NCBI GenBank assembly: GCA_937888925.1
Contig: CALARM010000027.1
Coordinates: 1-18,032 of the forward strand
From: an uncultured Synergistia bacterium
GTDB lineage: Bacteria; Eremiobacterota; SpSt-956; JAKJGF01
Direction: 5' to 3'
Length of the DNA stretch: 18,032 nucleotides
Part shown: positions 5,779-18,032 of the stretch, one piece after another
Layout of the letters: every line of letters starts with the position of its first letter
How positions within the stretch are numbered: the first letter of the stretch is position 1
Program-made: the position numbers and the translations under genes
Notes under the pieces: generated by a model
What the model saw: the letters and a program-made list of their open reading frames with translations, nothing else
What the model was told of the DNA's origin: nothing
Databases searched by the model: none

Positions 5779-8214
5779 TTATGATATTTTATTTATTGTT
5801 TTTATAACTTTTATAAATTTTTCTTGAATTTGTGATAATTCTTCTATAATTAATTTATCTTTTAGAAGAATATTTGAATAATTATCTACCCTGTAAATAT
5901 AAATAATATCTCCATTAGTTTTTAATTCGTTATTACAAGTTAATGGATTTGTTTTTGATTTTATACTTATATTTTTATTCCCGAAAAGAGCTGAAGCTTT
6001 TACCACTTTTTCAAATAAATCTTCATCAAAAGCATGCCAGTGCAGTTCGTTTTCTTTTGCTTTTGCACATTCATGAGCTTTCTGAGCTATATAAAATTTA
6101 TCTTTATCTTTAGCAAAACCATCATCAATCCAACCCATAATAAAAGAATATATATGTTCTCTGGATTCAAAACTATTATCATCTCTATCAAGTAAATAAT
6201 CCAGTAATATGTGTTCGAATGGTGGGATAAGCCTTCCTCTATCAGGACAATAATTTGTATGAGGGACAGAAATAACCACTGTACCGCCTGGTTTTACATA
6301 ATCATTCCATTCTATAAGGGTTTTAATGGGATTGGATGTATGTTCCAGCACATTATGGGCTATCAAGAAATCTGCCCCATCAGGAAATCTCTCTCTAAAG
6401 ACTTTTAATGAATAGGTTTTTTTTATCTCTCTTTCATTTTCATTTTTTTTATCAAAATACTCACAGAATACTCCTTCCGGAATTTGCTGAGGGTAAGCTC
6501 CTGCCCCTATCTCTAAACCTCTCCCTTTTAAAAATTCTTTGCTTAATTTATATCTAATCATATTACAATCTATTCCAAAAGGTTTTCCTTCTGGAATAAA
6601 TTGTAATTCATTATCTGGAATAGTTATTATATTATCTGTCTTTATAGCCAGATTTTTTAAAATATCAGGCGAGGTAACCAGTCTTTTCTCAGAACATTCT
6701 ATTAAATATATTTTTACATCTGTTTCACCTTGAACAAAATGACCTTCATGTTTACTATTATTATATCTGGTATTAATAATATGCTCCTCTACTGAAATCT
6801 TATCAAATACCTTGAACGCTATGTCAAAATCCATCAGACTATCATTATAATAAAGTTCGCCGAGCTGGAAACATTTTATATCTGACGTTCTTATTGTTAC
6901 AGTATTTCCAGGAGTAGCTTCAGGCGATTCTATAATTATATAATATTTATTAGTAATATTAGATTTTACAGGATTAAAAGTAAACTGAACCCATGAATTA
7001 TCCTTTATACAGGAAGCATTTATTTTTTTTGTTACTAATGTTTCTTTATTATTTAAATCATTTTTTAAATGAAAGATTATATCTTTATTATTTGTTCTAT
7101 TGAATGTAGCAAATAATATGTCAATCTGGCAGAGTTCTCTGTCAGTAATAAAAGTCTGTATTATTTTTGTATGTCCATATATTTCATTTAGATGAGAAAG
7201 GCAGTTACACTGAGCTACAACCGGGCGAGGTCTTGTAAATGAGTCATCAAGAAAGGTTATCTTTACAATTTCCTTTGATTTTTTTGGATATTTACATAGG
7301 AAGACTGCCCCAAAAGAAGGACTTTTATATAGTTCTTCAAGTTCTACTTCTTTTAAAATAAAATCTTTTTCTGTAATAGTAGTTTCTTCTGGTGTATTGT
7401 TAAAATCTCCAATATCTATGCCGGATCTGTTAATATGAGTATAGCACAGTATTTGCCTGAAGTATTTGTTTAAAACATATTTCCACTGTCTGGGAGACCA
7501 TATATTTAGATGTTGTGATATTCCAATATTATCATCTCTTTGAATTTTACATATTATTATAGGAACAATTATAAGTAAAAGACCGTCAGGTTTTAATATT
7601 TCACAAAGACATGATAAAAAATCCTGGGTATTCTCAATATGTTCCATTACGTTTGAACAGTAAATAAAATCAAAATAATCTTCAGTAAAACCAGTTATAT
7701 GCTCTAGATCCATTTGTTTATAAGTCAAATTTGACCTGACAAAAGTTTTTTTACTGAATTCAACAGCTTTTTCACTTATTTCCAGCCCAATAACTTCGTA
7801 ATCTCTATTTATATCGGCGAGGTAGGCTGTACCATATCCACAACCTGACCCTGCATCAAGTATTTTATTTCCTTTAATAAATTGTGTTGCTAGATAATAT
7901 AAAGATAGGTGAGCAAAATAACAGTTGTTTTTATATAAATGTGAAACTCTTTCTCCATATTCATGAAGCTCTTTGATAGTTTTATCAACTTGAAGTTCAT
8001 ATTTAGATTTAAAAGTCTTTTTATCAATTAAATTACCACTGGGAATTGCAGATAGCTCTGTATAAGGAATTTTCTTTATATCATAACATTTAAATTTTAA
8101 TTTTTCAAAAATTTCCGGACTTACGATCCATCTTTTTAATCCATTTTCAACCAGGTAAACTTTACCTTCATCTGTATTATTTTCCCCGGTAATGAGTTTC
8201 CCTTCAAGTTCCAT
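5779..8214 (-). CDS. multidomain protein with two methyltransferase domains, a jelly-roll and two VYLVENG-type modules
   Basis: An 811-residue protein with the order module - MT1 - jelly-roll - module - MT2. The small module (about 17-64, KVYLVENGLKRWI...ELSAIPSGNLID) recurs at 499-548 (KIYLIECSEKRLV...ELQFIPEGKPFGID). MT1 (about 75-310) has ILDAGSGCGYGTAYL (118-132), GLEISEKAV (143-151) and SNVMEHI (187-193). Residues 315-470 resemble the jelly-roll attached to many surface-glycan GTs (IDILFAT-NR-N, DIIFHLKND, DNSWVQFTFNPV, YYIIIESPEATPGNTVTI). MT2 (about 550-777) has GLEIGAGAYPQQIP (566-579), HNVLEHTSNPIKTLIEW (620-636) and GGTVVISVPH. It is a paralogue of the C-terminal domain of the neighbouring asparagine synthetase fusion. 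The tail is helical and Lys-rich. There is no signal peptide, so it is presumably cytosolic. The ATG is backed by GGAAGGG 6 bases upstream. Substrates unknown. Confidence 0.82.
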   Translation of the reverse strand: MELEGKLITGENNTDEGKVYLVENGLKRWIVSPEIFEKLKFKCYDIKKIPYTELSAIPSGNLIDKKTFKSKYELQVDKTIKELHEYGERVSHLYKNNCYFAHLSLYYLATQFIKGNKILDAGSGCGYGTAYLADINRDYEVIGLEISEKAVEFSKKTFVRSNLTYKQMDLEHITGFTEDYFDFIYCSNVMEHIENTQDFLSCLCEILKPDGLLLIIVPIIICKIQRDDNIGISQHLNIWSPRQWKYVLNKYFRQILCYTHINRSGIDIGDFNNTPEETTITEKDFILKEVELEELYKSPSFGAVFLCKYPKKSKEIVKITFLDDSFTRPRPVVAQCNCLSHLNEIYGHTKIIQTFITDRELCQIDILFATFNRTNNKDIIFHLKNDLNNKETLVTKKINASCIKDNSWVQFTFNPVKSNITNKYYIIIESPEATPGNTVTIRTSDIKCFQLGELYYNDSLMDFDIAFKVFDKISVEEHIINTRYNNSKHEGHFVQGETDVKIYLIECSEKRLVTSPDILKNLAIKTDNIITIPDNELQFIPEGKPFGIDCNMIRYKLSKEFLKGRGLEIGAGAYPQQIPEGVFCEYFDKKNENEREIKKTYSLKVFRERFPDGADFLIAHNVLEHTSNPIKTLIEWNDYVKPGGTVVISVPHTNYCPDRGRLIPPFEHILLDYLLDRDDNSFESREHIYSFIMGWIDDGFAKDKDKFYIAQKAHECAKAKENELHWHAFDEDLFEKVVKASALFGNKNISIKSKTNPLTCNNELKTNGDIIYIYRVDNYSNILLKDKLIIEELSQIQEKFIKVIKTINKIS
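5884..6558 (-). repeat. duplicated methyltransferase-domain coding segment (partner at 8342-9043)
   Basis: This segment encodes MT2 of the 811-residue protein and matches 8342-9043, which encodes the C-terminal domain of the asparagine synthetase fusion. Similarity is visible in the DNA as well as the protein, for example around 6155-6250 against 8610-8705. The protein match starts just before EIGAG and runs to YRVD. The copy here is 9 residues shorter between FDK and RFPDGADFLI. This is a diverged domain duplication, not a mobile repeat. Confidence 0.75.
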
Positions 8215-8257: not shown

Positions 8258-10873
8258 TTATCCAGACCAGATTTTATTTTTTTCCTCTATTTTATTGATT
8301 TCTTTTATTATTTTATTATCCTGTTTGTTGTCTTCTAATAAATCAACTCTGTAAATACAGATAATATCTCCTTCTGTAATGAGATTATTGTTTGAATTAT
8401 CCGGCGTGGCTATCAGTTCTATATTGATTTTTCTTTTACCTACATATCCGGATGTAATTATTATATTTTTTAACAGCTCTTCGCTGAATACATGCCAGTG
8501 TATTTCCATCTCTTTATTTTTTATATGTTCATTGGACAGTTTAGCAAATTCCATTTTATCCATGCCTTTTGCAAAACCTTCATCTATCCAGCCTGTTCTA
8601 AAGGAATAAAAATGTTCTCTTGACTCGAAATTATTATCATCTCTATCCAGTAAATAGTCTGACAGTATATGTTCAAATGGCGGAATAAGCCTTCCTTTAT
8701 CAGGGCAATAATCAGGATGTGGGACAGAGATAATAACAACTCCTCCGTTTTTTACATAACTATTCCATTCAATAAGAGTTTTTATAGGATTGGAGACATG
8801 CTCCAGTACATTATGGCCTATCAAGAAATCTGCTCCATCAGGAAATCTTTCAGGAAGTATTTCCAATGGATAAATATTATTTATTTCTATTTTATCTACA
8901 TCAAAATATTCTTTTAATTCTTTATCTGTTCTTTTATCAAAGTGTTCAACAACAATCCCCTGTGGAATAATTTGCGGATAATTTCCTGCTCCTATTTCTA
9001 TACCTTTGCCTTTTAAAAATGGTTTTGCTATTTCACATCTTATTCTATCACGTCTCCGAAATACATTTCTTCTGGATAATTCTTTATTTATCCGGTTAAT
9101 TTCTATTTTTTCTAAAAGATTAGAAACACTGTTTTTATATCCGGGAAAAGCATAACTGAACCAGTAAGACATAACAAATAAACTCCATATCTGTAAAGAT
9201 GAAATATTATGTCCTTTATAATAATTATTAACATAATTTTTCATATATTCTATATCTAATATGTCCGGAAGAGGTGTAGATGACAGGGAATTAAATACAT
9301 CTAGCACCAGAGGTTTTAATGATTCTAATAATTTATCAACAGGAACAGTAAAACCCATTTTAGGTCTATTTATTATTCTTTCAGGCAGATGGGAATGGAT
9401 AATTTCCTTTAATATCCACTTTGCAGTTCCGTCTGGATGTAATTTGTAACACTGTGGCAGCTGTGACGTATATTCGAACAGTTCTCTATCAAGAAAAGGA
9501 AACCTTCCTTCCAGGGAATGGGCCATGAGGATTTTATCTGCTTTCATCATAAGGTTTTCCGGCATCCAGGTTTTCATGTCATAGGCCATCATGCCGTTTA
9601 ATAAAGGCTGTTCCTCAAAATATTTTCTGTATCTCAGATTATGTGGAGCCATAAAGGGATCTTTTAAGAATTTTAGATGATTATTAAAATACCAGCTTTT
9701 TTCTAAAAATAATTCAAATCTTTTATTATATGGTATATCTTCACTCATCATCTGTTTATATTGAGGATATCCGGCAAAGATTTCGTCTCCGCCTTCACCT
9801 GAAAGTACAACTGTTACGTGTTTTTTTAATTCTTCACATAGAATGTAAAGAGGCAGACAGGCAGGATCTGCAATTGGTTCATCAAGTGAAAGAATGATAT
9901 TATCAAAGTTTTTTATTAATTCTTCTGCTGTAGTTAATACTTCTATATGCTGAAGATTATATTTTTTTGCCACTTCCCTTGAATATTCGAATTCATTGAC
10001 CTCAGGAAAACCTATATTAAATGTTGTCAGGTTTGCTCCCCAACTATGTATAAGATAGGCAATCGTACTTGAATCGATACCGCCACTGAGTAATACTCCT
10101 ATTGGAACTTCTCCCATTAATTGAGATTTTACAGCTTTTTTTATTTTCTCAAGTAATTCTTCTTTAAATTCATTTATGTCTTTATAAGGATACGTATCTT
10201 TATAAGATATATCCCGGTATCTGTAACTGGTGGCTTTACCATTTTTAATTTCAATATATGTTCCTCCTTCCAGTCGTTTTATTTTCTTAAAAAAACTGTA
10301 GGGAGCCTGAATATATCTGAATATCAAGTAATCCTGAAAACCTGAAGGATCCAGGCTTAAATCTATATCCGGTATTGCAAGAATTCCTTTTAATTCAGAG
10401 GAAAAAATTATCTTTTTATCATCTTCATAAATATAAAGAGGCTTTATTCCAAAATAATCACGAACAAGGTAAATAATATCTTTTTTATTATCCCATATAC
10501 AGAAAGCAAACATTCCATTAAATTTATTGAATGCTTCAATACCATATTCTTCATAACTTTTCAGGATAACTTCAGTATCTGTATTTGTTTTGAATATATA
10601 TCCTTTTTTAAGTAGATCCTGTTTAATATCATTATAATTATATACTTCTCCGTTATAAACGATTCCTATTGTATTATCTTCATTAAAAATAGGCTGCCTG
10701 CCACCTGCAATATCTACTATTGAAAGGCGAAGGTTTATAAAACCACAGTTTTGACCTGTATACTCTCCATATTCATCAGGCCCCCTGTGAAATAATGCAT
10801 GTTTAAAGATGTTTAAAGATTCTTTTACAGGAATATTATCTTTTTTACCAATAATTCCAGCTATGCCACACAT
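8258..10873 (-). CDS. asnB: glutamine-dependent asparagine synthetase-like amidotransferase fused to a methyltransferase
   Basis: An 871-residue fusion. Residues 1-590 are a complete AsnB-type enzyme. Cys2 is the glutaminase nucleophile (MCGIAG), followed by HRGPDE (29-34), YNGEVYN (73-79), TDTEV (98-102) and RDYFGIKPLY (138-147). The synthetase part has the ATP pyrophosphatase loop LLSGGIDSS (261-269), LSGEGGDEIFAGY (357-369), GRFPFLDRELFEY (456-468) and RPKMGF (503-508). Free-standing AsnB is about 550 residues, so the rest is extra: a class I methyltransferase (about 611-845) with GIEIGAGNYPQIIP, GHNVLEHVSNPIKTLIEW and SVPHPDYCPDKGR. AsnB homologues in O-antigen and exosortase loci are thought to amidate sugar carboxylates. 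Here amidation plus methylation of one glycan residue is plausible but inferred; plain asparagine synthesis is not excluded. The ATG has GGAAGGA 9 bases upstream. The gap to the lipoprotein gene is 15 bases. Confidence 0.9.
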   Translation of the reverse strand: MCGIAGIIGKKDNIPVKESLNIFKHALFHRGPDEYGEYTGQNCGFINLRLSIVDIAGGRQPIFNEDNTIGIVYNGEVYNYNDIKQDLLKKGYIFKTNTDTEVILKSYEEYGIEAFNKFNGMFAFCIWDNKKDIIYLVRDYFGIKPLYIYEDDKKIIFSSELKGILAIPDIDLSLDPSGFQDYLIFRYIQAPYSFFKKIKRLEGGTYIEIKNGKATSYRYRDISYKDTYPYKDINEFKEELLEKIKKAVKSQLMGEVPIGVLLSGGIDSSTIAYLIHSWGANLTTFNIGFPEVNEFEYSREVAKKYNLQHIEVLTTAEELIKNFDNIILSLDEPIADPACLPLYILCEELKKHVTVVLSGEGGDEIFAGYPQYKQMMSEDIPYNKRFELFLEKSWYFNNHLKFLKDPFMAPHNLRYRKYFEEQPLLNGMMAYDMKTWMPENLMMKADKILMAHSLEGRFPFLDRELFEYTSQLPQCYKLHPDGTAKWILKEIIHSHLPERIINRPKMGFTVPVDKLLESLKPLVLDVFNSLSSTPLPDILDIEYMKNYVNNYYKGHNISSLQIWSLFVMSYWFSYAFPGYKNSVSNLLEKIEINRINKELSRRNVFRRRDRIRCEIAKPFLKGKGIEIGAGNYPQIIPQGIVVEHFDKRTDKELKEYFDVDKIEINNIYPLEILPERFPDGADFLIGHNVLEHVSNPIKTLIEWNSYVKNGGVVIISVPHPDYCPDKGRLIPPFEHILSDYLLDRDDNNFESREHFYSFRTGWIDEGFAKGMDKMEFAKLSNEHIKNKEMEIHWHVFSEELLKNIIITSGYVGKRKINIELIATPDNSNNNLITEGDIICIYRVDLLEDNKQDNKIIKEINKIEEKNKIWSG

Positions 10874-10888
10874 TAAAATTATCCTTCC

Positions 10889-12619
10889 TCAGTTGTCAAG
10901 ATCATAGGAAGGAATATTATAATAAGGAATTCTTGCAATTATTTCCATTATTTTTTTATGCATATCCTCCCTGTCTTTATATCCTGAAAACATTATCTTA
11001 ACAATTATTTGAGTTCTTTCTTCTCCCGGATTAATTATTCCAAAGTCTATAGCAGTTCCATGTATTTTACCATATGGATTATCATATTTGTCTTTATCAT
11101 CCGGTGTATTTACATGATTTAACAAATTTTCAAATTTAAACCAGTCATCATGCCAGATTTTTTTTTTGTTATATTTTCCCATAGATGAAGGCTTCAGTAG
11201 TATTGTATAATGATCTATATAGGAAACAAATTTCTTGTTTTCATTTATCAGTGTTGCTGGCTTAGTGCTGTCCCAGGTAGCATGCCATCTTACACCTTTT
11301 GATTCAGGAGGCGCGTAAGTGCCGGCAAAAAGTTTATCATTCCTATCATTATACATACCCATCCAGTTATTTTTATTCTTTCTATTTTTTTTGTCTATTT
11401 TCCATAATCTGGCACAGTCATACTCGCCATCATCCCAGTATTGATGAACGTTTTCCTGATGAAATACAAGGTCTTTTTCGAGAAATGTACGATCAGACAT
11501 AAGAGCACCATCCTGGAATATATATATATAACGCAAAGGGACTTTATATATATTTTTTATAGTTATTTTCATAGGAACATAATTTTCGTTATAGTACATT
11601 TCATGGTTTACAGTGATTATTGCAGGAGGATTTTTCCAGCCTGTCTTTAGAATATTTCCATAATTAGAGCCATTTATTACATAAGGATTAAAACCATCTT
11701 TGTAATTGTACGAATACTCTACATAAGCTGTTTGATTGTTATTTACCAGATTATGATTTATTTTCCAGTTTAAAGCAATTGCTCTTGTTTCGAAAGAAAC
11801 TTTGTTATTATAGGCAATAATAAGATCATCAGGCGTGCAAAAATAATCCCGAAATGTAAAAAGATTATAGATGAAAAAATTCTGGTAAAAATAACCTTCC
11901 AGATTATTTTCATCTCCAAAAGTCATTGCTATATCTGAAGCTTTACTTCTATATATTTTTCTGTTGAATACTTTTGACCATAGAAAATATTCTATTTCAT
12001 CTTTGTTTTCTTTTTTTAAAGATTCATGAAGGCCAACCTTAAAGATTGGTTTATTAAAATAAACTGTAGCATTATTTCTTACCCATAAATGTAATCTTAT
12101 GTTATTAGTAGATTTTTCACCTATAACTCCTTTGGCAGTCAAATATTCCCATTGGTCAGTTTTAGACGGCCCCATAGGTGAATTTGTCCAGGTTTCTCCG
12201 TCATATAACGCAAGGTATACAGAATTGCACTTGTTACTATTTACCAGGCAACTAAATATAAATTCATTATTTTTATATTTCTCTATTTCTATATTAATAT
12301 CCTGATATAAAGCAATCTGATTGCCATCTTTATGGGTAATTTTTGCACTATTACTACTTTCTTTTCTTTCTTTATGTATAATTCCTTTACCATCTCCTCC
12401 CAGTATCCAGTTGTCAGGATTTTGATTGTCTCCCTGAGTCCATGATGAAAAATCTCCGTTAATTTCTTTCGAATCTGAGCTGGCTTTATTTTGTAAGATT
12501 AAGGTTTGGTTATTTTTTGAAGAAGTAATTTTACTATCGTTTGATTTGTTATTACAACTGTTAAATACTAAAGAAATTAATATCATTAAAAAGATTAGAA
12601 TTAAATTTTTTGCTTTCAT
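10889..12619 (-). CDS. lipoprotein with N-terminal carbohydrate-binding-like jelly-roll and an unrecognised C-terminal domain
   Basis: A 576-residue secreted lipoprotein. It has Lys-rich start MKAK, a hydrophobic core, then lipobox F-N-S-C with lipidated Cys22 and N-N after it (no Asp, so no inner-membrane retention signal of the E. coli type). A Ser/Asn/Lys-rich linker leads to residues 54-195, a jelly-roll of the CBM4/9-like kind (NGDFSSW, NPDNWIL, ALYQDI, WEYLTAKGV, LHLWVRNNATVYF). Residues about 200-576 form a domain I do not recognise, rich in aromatic residues, with HQYWDDGE, APPESKGVRWHATWD, HGTAIDFG and NPGEERTQIIVKIMF. This domain recurs in the plus-strand fragment at 28-813. ATG at 12619 is chosen over an in-frame GTG at 12628, because that GTG is part of the AAGGTG ribosome binding site. 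The gene sits between glycan enzymes, so binding or modification of the exported glycan is a fair guess. Confidence 0.82.
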   Translation of the reverse strand: MKAKNLILIFLMILISLVFNSCNNKSNDSKITSSKNNQTLILQNKASSDSKEINGDFSSWTQGDNQNPDNWILGGDGKGIIHKERKESSNSAKITHKDGNQIALYQDINIEIEKYKNNEFIFSCLVNSNKCNSVYLALYDGETWTNSPMGPSKTDQWEYLTAKGVIGEKSTNNIRLHLWVRNNATVYFNKPIFKVGLHESLKKENKDEIEYFLWSKVFNRKIYRSKASDIAMTFGDENNLEGYFYQNFFIYNLFTFRDYFCTPDDLIIAYNNKVSFETRAIALNWKINHNLVNNNQTAYVEYSYNYKDGFNPYVINGSNYGNILKTGWKNPPAIITVNHEMYYNENYVPMKITIKNIYKVPLRYIYIFQDGALMSDRTFLEKDLVFHQENVHQYWDDGEYDCARLWKIDKKNRKNKNNWMGMYNDRNDKLFAGTYAPPESKGVRWHATWDSTKPATLINENKKFVSYIDHYTILLKPSSMGKYNKKKIWHDDWFKFENLLNHVNTPDDKDKYDNPYGKIHGTAIDFGIINPGEERTQIIVKIMFSGYKDREDMHKKIMEIIARIPYYNIPSYDLDN

Positions 12620-12625
12620 ATAAAG

Positions 12626-12631
12626 CACCTT
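12626..12631 (-). promoter_or_regulatory. ribosome binding site (AAGGTG) that fixes the lipoprotein start
   Basis: On the minus strand AAGGTG lies 6 bases before ATG at 12619. The in-frame GTG at 12628 overlaps this site and would have no ribosome binding site of its own. Starting at the ATG also gives a typical short basic signal-peptide head (MKAK). Confidence 0.65.
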
Positions 12632-12730: not shown

Positions 12731-15700
12731 TTATTTAAGAATTTCTGAAATATTATCCTCCCATAATTTCAGGTATCTGTCATGATTAAATATATCTATT
12801 GCTGTTTTTCGTGCTTCCATACCTATCTTTCTTGTTTTCTCAGGATTTTTTGACAGGTATAATAAATATTCTCTTAATTCACCAGGATCATTTGAGTAAA
12901 ATCCATTTACTCCATTTTTTATAAATAAGTCTACGTCATGGTTATTATTACTGACCGGTACGAGGCCGCACATCATTCCCTCTCCTCTTGATCGAGGCAT
13001 TGGAGAACGTAGTGTTGGATTGAAATAAATTGAATATTGTCTGATTTCATCAATATAATTACGAAATTTTGCATAAGCGTAATTATTATTATCATGTCTA
13101 TAATTTATATCCGGTTCTGGTACAGAAAGCGTATCAGGCATAAATTCATCGGGAAATTCTTTGAATACGTCTTTAAATATAAAATAGCCGTTATAATGAG
13201 GACGATATAACATGGCGTTTAAAAACATTGTCAAAATTCCCTTTTTATAGGTGGCCGGATAAAATTCAGTAGGATCGAAGCCATGCCATATGACTGTTGA
13301 ATTTTTGAACTGCCATTCTCTCTGAGCCTGATAAGAATTGACTACAACCATTATGTTTTCTGTTAAGTTGAGCAGTTTTTTTCTTTCTTCTTCCATAACT
13401 TCCATTAAATTGTCTTCCCTGTAGTTTATATCATACTGGCCATAAAACTGCGGAGTACCATGACATATTGCAATTTTAGGAATATCCGCATTTCCCATAA
13501 ACCATTTAAATGTATCTCCCCATTTCCAGTCAGGACGGATAAATCCATTGGTATGTTCAGGAGATAATACATTTTCATCAAAATGCAGTATTGCCAGATC
13601 ATAATTTTTAATGTTTATGCTGGAAATATCTTTAAATATTGCATTTTCAGGTAATGGTCTTTTATCATATTCCCAGAATTCTGTTATTCCTGTGCCAAGT
13701 CCTGTTGCCAGAGTAAAGTTGTACGGTAATTTGTAAAGTTCGTATTGATGAGAACAATGCCATCTGTAGGTCAGTATGTTTAATTTTCTATTGCTTTTAA
13801 TATAAAATGATGATGGGATAAATCTTTGAAACATGTTTTCCAGATAATAATTATCTTCATTTTTCTGATTTTTATGGTAAGCCATCCAGTCTAAAATTTT
13901 TTCGTAAGTATCAAGGGTCCATCTTCTTGCAATATACAATAATTCCGGGTGGGTTTCGTACAGTCTTCTGAAATTTAAGAGGGAACGGACTGGCTTTGTA
14001 TCATCGTTTACAGCTGAAGCATGAGTTATATGAATACTGAATGCATGGGGAGTATATTTGATTCTTGCTCCTTTTTTGTATAGTACATAACCCATTTCAA
14101 TATCTTCCCATCCAAATCCTGATGCAGGATCTTTAGAATAAGAAAAAAGAGGATTGAATAAATCTTTATCAATAAAACTTTTTCTTATTGAAAAATTTCT
14201 TGTAATACAATTCAAAAAACTTCTATAGTTAATTGTATCCTGCAAAATGGCATTTTCTTCTACTTTTTCAGGATTATGTTCGTAATCTGTCAGGACTGTA
14301 AAAGGTTCTTTACCTTCTGTTTCAATATTAAAGGGGCCAATCACCACATCACAATCTTTATAGGTATAGGCTGAGGCATGGGCAAGTAGAAAATCTTTAT
14401 TTACAATACAATCTGCATCGATAATAATAATGATGTCACCAGTGGCATGTTTTATCCCACTGTTTCGTGAGATACAATTTCCTGAATTTTTTTCATTTTT
14501 TATAATGCGAATAGATGGAACATTCTTTTTATACGTATCTTCTTTTAAATTGTTTATATAATCTTCCACTATTTTTATGGAATTATCAGGAGAATGGTCG
14601 TCTACGAGGATAATTTCAAATGTCCCCGGATAGGTTTGCCTGGTAAATGAGTCAAGATAGTATTTTATTTCTTTTTCTTTTCCATATAAAATGCTGATTA
14701 TACTGAATACTGGTAATTGTCCGTTGAGAAAAAAACCGGACATTTTATAGTCCTCAATAATGGTTTTATAGATATCTATGACATCTGTAATTACATGTTT
14801 AATATAGTATTTTCTTACAAAATTATCTCTGGCTATTTCCGCCATTTTTTTTCTGAGACAGGGATCTGTTATTAATAGAGAAATTTTTGTAAACCATTCT
14901 TCCTGAGTCTCCGCCAGAAATCCGTCGACTCCGTCTGTAATACATTGTTTGTACGAATCTGTCGGAGAAGCCACAGTTGGTACAAGAACCAGTGCTGATT
15001 CGAATATTTTTAGCTCGCTTTTACATGATGTAAATATATTATTTAATTCCAGTGGAGCAAGATTAATATCCATATTTGATAGATATTTAAGCATCTCTAC
15101 ATAATCCATAATAGGTTTTCTTATTATTCTTTTACCGAATTCTGAGAATTTTTCTTCTAAATCCAGTTCCCCTACTACATGAAATTCTATGTCAGGAAAT
15201 TCTTTTAATATTTTATATAAACCATTGGAAGCTTCTAAAAAATCTTTGTTATGAGTAATAGTACCACTGAAATACCCTATTTTTACTGCCTTGTTTTTCT
15301 TTATTCCACTATGTTTATTAATTAATTCTATTTCATTTCTGGTAAACTTTTCTTTTTTTAATATATTTTCTATGTCTTCCTTTGATAGAGGGATGTTTTT
15401 TATGGATTTCATAATATTTATTTTATTATCTTCCATATTACCGTTTAATTTCTCTATTGTTTCAGGACTTATTATATACCAGGGTTTTTCTATTAATTTT
15501 TTTGAAAATTCGTATTGAATATTATTAATTGTATTTTTTATGACAAAAGATTTTTTATCTAATTTCCCGGATATGTCTGCCAGTAATTTTGTTGTGCATG
15601 TAATATAATCACATCTCAGTAATGTTTCTTTCCATTGTTGAACTCCAAATAAAAATTGTTTTTTCTCCCAGTCATTTTTATAGTTTAACCCATCAAAGTA

Positions 15701-18032
15701 TTGCAAAAAATCCATCGAAAATATAAGATCATCTATATCAAAGATAATCGGTATATGTTTATCTTTAAATTTATTTATTATATGTCCTAACTTATGTGTC
15801 ATAAATGCTCTGAAAATTACTAATATATCAGAATCCATTAAAGAATTCATCATGTCTACATCAGTCTCGTAAAAGACGAAGCATTCTATTCCTTTCCTGG
15901 TTAATTCTTCAATTAAATTATAGATTCTGTATCTTTTAGAGTTTTGATCAAATGGTGTAACTAAAAAAGATATTTTTTTGATATTTGTTTCTTTATATTT
16001 TCCCGGGTTAAAATGTTCCATTGTTACATTAAATATTTTTTTAATATTTATTTGGCTATTCCTGTTCTCTAATTGAATTTCCAGCCATATTTTCTCTTCT
16101 CCGTATTTATTGAACATAACTGATGTACTGAAACCGCTATTGCTACTAAATTTATACTCTTTATAACATTCTTTTACATCTTTTCTTTCTATCGGGTAAT
16201 TACATTTATAAGAAGAGTTACCGGCATGCAATATAATGTTGTTAATTTTTTCTGTTTCATGAAAACACCATCCTGAAAAAACTACAGGTTTAAAAGGTGG
16301 CCCTTCCCACCTGTCCGGTAAATCTAACCAGTATAGAAAACCTTTTGTAATGAACTTATTTTCTATATCAAGGTTCAGCTTCTTCCCGTTATTCAGAATA
16401 ACTTCAAGGTATAATGACTGTTTGCCTGTATTTTTAAAAGAGATATATGAGTTAAATCCGCTGTTTAAACTGAATGGATAATCCTTATAGATTTCTCTTA
16501 CATCCTTTCTTTCTATCTGGTAATTACATTCAAAAGAAGAAGTATCAGTATGTATTGTAATTTTTTCAATTTTTTCGGTTTCGTGGAAACACCAGCCTGA
16601 GATAAGAATTTTTTCTCCTGTAATAACTTCCCATGTTTTCGGTATATCCAGAGAATAGAAAAATCTCTTTATATTGAATTTTTTCTCCATGGGAAATTTC
16701 AATTTTTTTGCATTATCCATAATAACTTCTAAATATAAAGAATTTTCTCCCGGTGTATTAAAAGATATATATGCATTAAATCCACAGTTCCAGCTGAAAG
16801 TATAATCTTTATATACCTCTCCGACATCTTTTCTTTCTATAGGATAATTACATTCAAACGAAGAATTATCCGTGTATACTATAATTTTTTCGATTTTTTC
16901 AGTTTCGTGGAAACACCATCCGGAGATAAGAATGGTTTCTCCTGTTGTGCCTTCTCGGTTCTCTGGCAAATCCAGAAAATAGAGAATTTTCTTTATATTG
17001 AATTTTTTATCTATTTCAATTATCTGTTTTTTCCCATTCTTCAGAATAACTTCAAGATATAACGATTTTTCACCAGGTGTATCAAAAGATATATATGCAT
17101 TAAATCCGCTGTTTAAACTGAACGAATATTCTTCATAGTTCTCTTTCACGTCTTTTCGTTCCATTGGATAATTACACTCAAAAGAAGAATTATCAGTGCA
17201 TATTGTGATTTTTTCAATTTTTTCAGTTTCATGGAAACACCAGCCGGAGACAAGAATTGCTTCTCCTGTTGTGCCTTCCAAAGGTATCGACACGTCCAGA
17301 GAATGAAAAATTCTATATATATTGAGTTTTTTATCTGTGTCAATTTTCAGGTTTTTTCTATTGTTTAGAATAACTTCAAGATATAAAGATTTTTCACCAG
17401 GTGTATTGAAAGATATATATGTATTAAATCCGCTGTTTAAGCTGAAAGGATAGTCGTTATATACTTCTCCCACGTCTTTTCTTTCTATCGGATACGTACA
17501 CTCATAGGAGGAATTGTCGGTATGTATTATGATTTTTTCAATTTTTTCACTTTTGTGAAAGCACCAGCCGGCGATAAGAATTTTTTCTTCTATGATAAAG
17601 CTCAATGTTTCTGGCAAATCTAAAGAATAAATAATTTTTTTTGTGCTCTTGAAATATTTATTTACGCCTTTTATTATTTTATTTATATTAAGATTTTTAA
17701 CAATAAATTTGGCAATTTTTCTCTTTTTTGAATTTTCAGGTAAAAGGAAATCTCTGATACTGTAGTATTTACATAAAGCTTTCCATCCATGAGACATATA
17801 AATATCATTTAATATTCTTTCTTTTTCCTGAAGGGCAATTATGTGATTATTTTGGTTATATAGTAATATGTTTTTTCTCTCTATATTATCTTTTAGTTCG
17901 TATTCTATATGTTTCATCTGATTGTATAGATTTTTTATAATCTCTTCTTTTTCCTGAATAATATTTATTTTTTCCTGTTCTTTTTCCTGAATAATATTTA
18001 TTTTTTCCTGTTCTTTTTCCTGAATAATATTT
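12731..18032 (-). CDS. giant multi-glycosyltransferase with coiled coil and five tandem beta-rich modules (5' end outside the window)
   Basis: The frame is open to the right edge, so the start is outside; residue numbers count from the internal Met at 17917. Upstream of it is a coiled coil of 11-residue repeats (IIQEKEQEKIN), then MSHGWKALCKYYSIRDFLLP (41-60), a segment often seen after coiled coils in surface-glycan GTs. Residues 95-634 are five 108-residue modules with a GWCFH motif. GT unit 1 (about 645-1055, GT4-like) has FDIDDLIF (726-733), KIGYFSGTITH (879-889), FHVVGEL and FESALVLVPTVAS (972-984). GT unit 2 (about 1068-1300, GT2) has LVDDHSPDNS, NSGNCISRNSG, DAD (1167-1169) and GFGWEDIEMGYVL. 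GT unit 3 (about 1375-1728, GT4-like) has ICHGTPQF, VIWHGFDPTEFYP and RGEGMMCGLVPVS. Each unit keeps its family motifs, so all three may be active in building one chain. No signal peptide or membrane spans are visible; cytosolic action is likely. Confidence 0.88.
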   Translation of the reverse strand, partial: NIIQEKEQEKINIIQEKEQEKINIIQEKEEIIKNLYNQMKHIEYELKDNIERKNILLYNQNNHIIALQEKERILNDIYMSHGWKALCKYYSIRDFLLPENSKKRKIAKFIVKNLNINKIIKGVNKYFKSTKKIIYSLDLPETLSFIIEEKILIAGWCFHKSEKIEKIIIHTDNSSYECTYPIERKDVGEVYNDYPFSLNSGFNTYISFNTPGEKSLYLEVILNNRKNLKIDTDKKLNIYRIFHSLDVSIPLEGTTGEAILVSGWCFHETEKIEKITICTDNSSFECNYPMERKDVKENYEEYSFSLNSGFNAYISFDTPGEKSLYLEVILKNGKKQIIEIDKKFNIKKILYFLDLPENREGTTGETILISGWCFHETEKIEKIIVYTDNSSFECNYPIERKDVGEVYKDYTFSWNCGFNAYISFNTPGENSLYLEVIMDNAKKLKFPMEKKFNIKRFFYSLDIPKTWEVITGEKILISGWCFHETEKIEKITIHTDTSSFECNYQIERKDVREIYKDYPFSLNSGFNSYISFKNTGKQSLYLEVILNNGKKLNLDIENKFITKGFLYWLDLPDRWEGPPFKPVVFSGWCFHETEKINNIILHAGNSSYKCNYPIERKDVKECYKEYKFSSNSGFSTSVMFNKYGEEKIWLEIQLENRNSQINIKKIFNVTMEHFNPGKYKETNIKKISFLVTPFDQNSKRYRIYNLIEELTRKGIECFVFYETDVDMMNSLMDSDILVIFRAFMTHKLGHIINKFKDKHIPIIFDIDDLIFSMDFLQYFDGLNYKNDWEKKQFLFGVQQWKETLLRCDYITCTTKLLADISGKLDKKSFVIKNTINNIQYEFSKKLIEKPWYIISPETIEKLNGNMEDNKINIMKSIKNIPLSKEDIENILKKEKFTRNEIELINKHSGIKKNKAVKIGYFSGTITHNKDFLEASNGLYKILKEFPDIEFHVVGELDLEEKFSEFGKRIIRKPIMDYVEMLKYLSNMDINLAPLELNNIFTSCKSELKIFESALVLVPTVASPTDSYKQCITDGVDGFLAETQEEWFTKISLLITDPCLRKKMAEIARDNFVRKYYIKHVITDVIDIYKTIIEDYKMSGFFLNGQLPVFSIISILYGKEKEIKYYLDSFTRQTYPGTFEIILVDDHSPDNSIKIVEDYINNLKEDTYKKNVPSIRIIKNEKNSGNCISRNSGIKHATGDIIIIIDADCIVNKDFLLAHASAYTYKDCDVVIGPFNIETEGKEPFTVLTDYEHNPEKVEENAILQDTINYRSFLNCITRNFSIRKSFIDKDLFNPLFSYSKDPASGFGWEDIEMGYVLYKKGARIKYTPHAFSIHITHASAVNDDTKPVRSLLNFRRLYETHPELLYIARRWTLDTYEKILDWMAYHKNQKNEDNYYLENMFQRFIPSSFYIKSNRKLNILTYRWHCSHQYELYKLPYNFTLATGLGTGITEFWEYDKRPLPENAIFKDISSINIKNYDLAILHFDENVLSPEHTNGFIRPDWKWGDTFKWFMGNADIPKIAICHGTPQFYGQYDINYREDNLMEVMEEERKKLLNLTENIMVVVNSYQAQREWQFKNSTVIWHGFDPTEFYPATYKKGILTMFLNAMLYRPHYNGYFIFKDVFKEFPDEFMPDTLSVPEPDINYRHDNNNYAYAKFRNYIDEIRQYSIYFNPTLRSPMPRSRGEGMMCGLVPVSNNNHDVDLFIKNGVNGFYSNDPGELREYLLYLSKNPEKTRKIGMEARKTAIDIFNHDRYLKLWEDNISEILK
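16016..17635 (-). repeat. five tandem 324-base repeats encoding 108-residue GWCFH modules
   Basis: Five in-frame copies of 324 bases follow each other without spacer. The Trp of the GWCFH motif is at residues 118, 226, 334, 442 and 550 of the giant GT (numbered from the Met at 17917), and the Leu-Asp pair opening each module is at 100, 208, 316, 424 and 532, so the period is exactly 108. Shared motifs per copy are LDxP, SGWCFHETEKIEKI, SSFECNYPIERKDV, FSLNSGFN, YISF and SLYLEVIL. The fifth copy is most diverged. Similarity is plain at the DNA level, for example around 17160-17250 against 16835-16930. Single copies of such modules occur N-terminal to bacterial glycan GTs; five in register is unusual to my knowledge. 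Confidence 0.92.
17948..18032 (-). repeat. perfect 33-base tandem repeat encoding 11-residue coiled-coil units
   Basis: The 33-base unit is present twice in full (17948-17980 and 17981-18013), and the first 19 bases of a third copy (18014-18032) reach the window edge, with no mismatch. It encodes the hendecad IIQEKEQEKIN in the frame of the giant GT. The copy number beyond the edge is unknown. Confidence 0.9.

Follow-up and report, generated by a model that had tools for sequence, protein, structure and literature searches.

Five contiguous 108-residue copies of one module lie between a coiled coil and a GT4-GT2-GT4 block of glycosyltransferase (GT) units in a large bacterial enzyme, probably a builder of surface sugar chains. 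The array occupies positions 16016–17635 on the minus strand of the window, the whole 18,032-nucleotide stretch of DNA analyzed here. As judged by sequence, it is an extended form of a known part that has one to three copies in the relatives found and four in an amidase. We propose, with a probability of about 0.45, that the protein is a multi-unit glycan synthase, in which the array would be an extended spacer arm making weak, repeated contacts with the nascent glycan.

Organization of the window protein

The open reading frame runs on the minus strand from 18031, at the window edge, down to 12731, and its 5' end is open. Inspection of the sequence between the edge and an internal Met at 17917 revealed no in-frame ATG, GTG or TTG. 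The database entry P0001 (1728 aa) is identical to the reading frame from that Met and is annotated with that start. The order of elements along the protein, all on the minus strand, is a probable coiled coil recognized by eye (17786–18031, extending beyond the window), a W-K and basic segment C-terminal of it (17648–17785) with weak likeness in some catalytic relatives, the five modules, the C-terminal part of a first GT4-like unit (14777–15301; Pfam Glycos_transf_1 / Glyco_trans_1_2), a GT2 unit (14183–14704; Pfam Glycos_transf_2), and the C-terminal part of a second GT4-like unit (12776–13048; Pfam/NCBIfam). A Pfam DUF1529 match to the protein was under its cut-off and was disregarded. Inside the probable coiled coil, TRF reports a 33-bp repeat (17945–18032, minus strand; 2.7 copies, 100% matches) that encodes an 11-residue unit and reaches past the window edge; in contrast to the array, this repeat looks recently expanded.

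Elsewhere in the window, the asparagine-synthase ORF (8258–10873) and the methyltransferase ORF (5779–8214) have a common C-terminal stretch (246 aligned residues, 60% identical). Two opposite-strand ORFs without a Pfam match, 10889–12628 and 28–813, align over 247 residues at 55% identity; the former has a lipoprotein-like start, as judged by eye.

The five-copy array

Counted as 108-residue units from residue 95, copies 1 (17312–17635), 2 (16988–17311), 3 (16664–16987), 4 (16340–16663) and 5 (16016–16339, closest to the catalytic part) fill exactly the minus-strand interval given above, which is the interval named in an earlier note on this DNA. That note had also described in-register copies without length drift, and its tryptophan markers were reproduced: the tryptophans of the GWCFH motifs are residues 118, 226, 334, 442 and 550, numbered from the internal Met. 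Self-identity over residues 80–640 is 58.6% at an offset of 108, versus 4–11% at 16 other offsets from 100 to 116, and TRF finds a 324-bp array of 3.9 copies with 78% matches and 0% indels. Pairwise identity is 65–69% among copies 1–4 and 44–46% between copy 5 and these; 33 of the 108 positions are invariant across all five. The G-W, R-x-D and G-F residues are kept in every copy, and the serine of S-G-F is replaced by cysteine in copy 3.

The predicted fold is that of an immunoglobulin-like domain. An AlphaFold2 model of 112 residues (copy 3 plus the 4 preceding ones) is an Ig-like beta-sandwich with a mean pLDDT of 93, and copies 3 and 4 modeled in tandem form two separate sandwiches. Together with the domain matches, these predicted sandwiches agree with the bead-like array ahead of three catalytic units that had been suggested; in the two-copy model the modules are separate and do not make one closed fold. 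Structure comparison of the single-module model gives general Ig-like, PKD and FN3-like domains. The tandem model matches multi-domain Ig-like chains and others in the PDB at low query TM-scores (0.25–0.39 among the 50 matches listed), and no solved structure is related by sequence at E up to 1.

A mobile or viral origin of the array was considered and rejected. Plasmids and phages searched with the array at E 1e-5 gave no match, no match to viral contigs was confirmed, and the array (30.8% GC) hardly differs in base composition from the catalytic part (30.4%). A viral fold library gave no match at E 0.001 or better. PHROGs gave eight weak matches (best phrog_35916, E 5e-7), in none of which does a stretch pass alone.

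Distribution and copy number of the module family

The module belongs over its whole length to a GT-linked GW-RxDV-SGF family (A1/A3 alignments), present beside glycosyltransferases in cyanobacteria, Pseudomonadota and Chthoniobacterales. Independent support for this membership comes from two phmmer protein searches with the window array as query, which recovered, besides the window protein itself, 20 further proteins with the module. The final profile scores the five window copies at 96–107 bits, these copies being part of its seed alignment. Over 140 fetched proteins the profile detects modules in the same 21; it detects none in the remaining 119, the listed catalytic relatives discussed below. 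The link to glycan GTs made in the earlier note holds, since 18 of the 20 other module proteins carry GT units; the remaining two are cell-wall hydrolases, the amidase P0015 with four copies and the glucosaminidase P0021 with one. The 18 GT proteins have one to three copies, when the split match of P0003 is counted as one module and P0002 as two full copies plus a partial one. Within the limits of the searches, no described family was seen in which arrays of five or more copies are common; the highest number in any other protein examined is three with glycosyltransferases and four in the amidase.

Among 64 fetched loci, found by searching with the window module and including some genomes twice, we counted 72 module-bearing ORF segments. 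A tandem pair is present in 55 of them and a single module in 17, and no segment has more than two. The view that the module usually occurs singly thus fits the 17 single segments and conflicts with the 55 pairs. Those loci that came from genome searches were taken with flanks of about 1.5 kb, which could clip very long arrays, and two of the three protein searches scored about 8000 candidates each, restricted to 0.55–1.75 times the query length; given these bounds, longer arrays may exist elsewhere. Matches were found in 4 of 299 genomes of a Pseudomonadota sample (at most 17 candidates scored per genome), in at least 15 of 291 genomes of a sample of the phylum Cyanobacteria (at most 18), and in at least 120 of 388 genomes of a Cyanobacteria order sample (at most 13).

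Tryptophan-to-tryptophan spacing in the other tandem proteins is 106–126 residues over 16 intervals, five of which equal 108; this set omits P0002, whose interval of 149 spans its partial copy. The spacing in P0017, counted on the alignment, is also 108, and that in 24 tandem loci is 105–113. The exact period is less telling in this light, since the spacing elsewhere covers 105–126 and 108 is the commonest value in proteins. Nevertheless, four intervals without an indel at such divergence suggest some constraint on length.

The closest parallels to the window layout are cyanobacterial proteins (Planktothrix, Okeania and others) that combine a sulfotransferase, a coiled coil, a module pair of the same family and GT units. 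In these proteins, as in the window, the module stands between the coiled coil (by eye) and the catalytic units, at comparable spacing, but none of the loci examined has more than two copies in an ORF. The single-copy relative P0010 has two GT2 units followed by GT4, unlike the GT4-GT2-GT4 order here. The metagenome protein P0002 has the module sequences nearest to those of the window and likewise carries repeated copies ahead of GT units; however, it differs in copy number, and its catalytic units are GT8-like and GT4. The P0002 array also contains, at residues 99–181, a 42-residue duplicate that is 93% identical, pointing either to a recent rearrangement or to misassembly.

The amidase P0015 has the same module by sequence (phmmer E 7e-25), in copies 109–114 residues apart. 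Its copies overlap Pfam Big_7 (PF17957; E 3.5e-18), whereas neither the window protein nor the array alone matches Big_7 at E up to 1. P0015 is a cell-wall enzyme, secreted as judged by eye from its N-terminus. Its matches among plasmids and phages, as far as listed (25 of 50 plasmid and 15 of 26 phage records), all start at residue 449 or later, within the amidase part or the tail of the fourth module, and so reveal no second array there. Among the papers listed by our literature searches, no title concerns the module in glycosyltransferases.

History of the duplications

In a tree of 70 rows and 91 columns, in which 25 of the 67 inner branches are starred and which came with a long-branch warning, window copies 1–4 group as a clade (97/97). 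Copy 5 branches next to them at 94/76, unstarred and below the 95/80 threshold of the tool, followed by the two full copies of P0002 (100/99). Identical codons at positions with the same residue are about as frequent as expected at saturation in the pairs with copy 5 (24 observed versus 24.9 expected for 1-5, 21 versus 25.6 for 2-5, 24 versus 26.2 for 3-5, and 30 versus 25.1 for 4-5), and nearly so in pairs 1-4 (39 versus 36.0) and 3-4 (44 versus 38.6). An excess is seen in pairs 1-2 (53 versus 36.2), 1-3 (52 versus 39.4), 2-3 (57 versus 40.1) and 2-4 (48 versus 37.6). NG86 dS values are 0.57 to 1.43 among copies 1–4; with copy 5 a single pair gives a value (1.53), and the other three are undefined.

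Relative to copy 5, synonymous sites are therefore saturated; among copies 1–4, saturation is partial or nearly reached. The exact period had been ascribed to strong constraint or to recent homogenization of the copies; the synonymous divergence speaks against the latter, which we reject, and of the former some constraint on length is what the data suggest. Near-saturation implies that the duplications are old and have been kept under purifying selection, while the codon excess in four pairs makes later exchange or duplication among copies 1–3 possible.

A conserved C-x-H...C trio

A C-x-H...C trio is present in all five window copies (16016–17635). In the 24 tandem loci it occurs in 23 of the GT-proximal copies and in none of the first copies, unlike the window array, and it is absent from all five modules of the two cell-wall hydrolases. 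Among 96 modules, the second cysteine is found in 47 of the 53 with the first cysteine and the histidine, versus 6 of the 43 others. The modules being related, this co-occurrence reads as a pattern of descent and perhaps of constraint too. By its residues, the trio is a possible metal or thiol site.

Relatives of the catalytic part

Among the best 120 of 380 matches to the catalytic part, the window protein's own included, the closest relatives are P0022 (58% identical) and P0023 (55%, Thermodesulfovibrio sp.). Both align across the entire catalytic part, and neither has the module. Other relatives listed are named as Nitrospiraceae, Thermodesulfovibrionales, Brocadiaceae, Trichlorobacter, Pseudoxanthomonas and others; going by these names, the host is likely to be Nitrospirota-like. 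The likeness of the W-K segment is uneven, with z of 5.9 in P0024, 3.9 in P0029, 3.5 in P0023, 1.4 in P0022 and about 0 in several others. The weakly matched segment ends 26 residues before the catalytic part in P0022 and 9 residues before it in P0023.

Six of these relatives were scanned with Pfam for an N-terminal domain. P0022 and P0036 have a GT2 domain and P0028 and P0033 a methyltransferase, in each case preceding a probable coiled coil; P0023 and P0026 gave no Pfam match for either domain. Residues 358–441 of the window ORF 5779–8214 are 35% identical over 84 residues to the P0036 region preceding its GT2 block, and perhaps represent another accessory domain in the same slot.

As described in PMC11231755, a coiled coil separates terminator from polymerase within one chain in WbbB and Klebsiella ORF6-O7, and the ORF6-O7 polypeptide combines a predicted Ig-like fold with two GT2 modules at its C-terminus. 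The layout of the catalytic relatives resembles this terminator-coiled coil-polymerase order. The likeness of WbdD, WbbB and ORF6-O7 to the window protein is one of layout, a coiled coil adjoining catalytic units. ORF6-O7 has one Ig-like fold before its coiled coil, whereas the window protein has five between coiled coil and GTs.

Possible roles of the array

In the mechanism that we favor, an accessory module adjoining catalytic units in cyanobacterial relatives would have been amplified in tandem within this lineage. The array, which we infer to be cytoplasmic, would set the distance between coiled coil and polymerase as an extended arm, and its modules would touch the nascent sugar chain weakly and repeatedly. 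An arm is suggested by the predicted separate sandwiches in an exact array, the clade of copies 1–4 and their kinship with P0002, and by the P0022 and P0023 catalytic parts, which are complete without a module that all 119 listed relatives lack. The occurrence of the module with GTs and, in the two remaining proteins, with glycan-acting cell-wall hydrolases favors weak glycan contact. The residues kept despite saturated synonymous sites relative to copy 5, and a trio in all five copies that is typical of GT-proximal ones, favor, without proving, more than a passive spacer. Against the arm with glycan contact stand the general character of the fold matches and the result that the window protein matches no carbohydrate-binding (CBM) family in Pfam or NCBIfam. 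The nine window ORFs scanned with Pfam gave no match to an ABC transporter domain, the N-terminus of the protein lying beyond the window, and the position of the Ig-like fold in ORF6-O7, ahead of the coiled coil, also counts against it.

Ig-like, PKD and FN3-like domains are frequently spacers, and the modules could merely hold the catalytic block off the coiled coil or the membrane, with copy number nearly neutral. We consider this a real though doubtful possibility. The listed catalytic relatives manage without the array, and copy number ranges from 1 to 5 across module-bearing proteins; however, 33 invariant positions point to purifying selection on specific residues, part of which may be due to the fold, and the presence of the trio in every window copy but in neither hydrolase also speaks against a plain spacer. 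Ig-like domains are also frequently protein-binding, and methyltransferase ORFs as well as a further GT2 enzyme are encoded in the same orientation within the window. Nevertheless, the occurrence of this module in cell-wall hydrolases is more in keeping with a glycan or spacing role, and a platform that docks partner proteins of the glycan pathway seems very unlikely.

A ruler, in which the length of the array, placed in series with the coiled coil, would fix glycan growth before termination, is unlikely. The position of the array between coiled coil and polymerase and its four indel-free intervals would suit such a role, and PMC11231755 describes a ruler function for the coiled coils of WbdD and related proteins. 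The ruler described there is, however, a coiled coil and not a string of Ig-like beads, the listed catalytic relatives have no array, and no terminator domain lies within view of the window. It is hardly probable that each Ig-like module would be one glycan contact site, module number and coiled coil together setting the modal chain length, with the trio maybe a metal- or thiol-dependent part.

If the array serves as a spacer only, it would be a modest example of a domain amplified within a glycosyltransferase chassis, the listed relatives of which are without the module. If it binds the growing glycan or determines spacing, varying the copy number in this one natural protein would be a direct test of whether beads behave like a coiled-coil ruler during glycan assembly.
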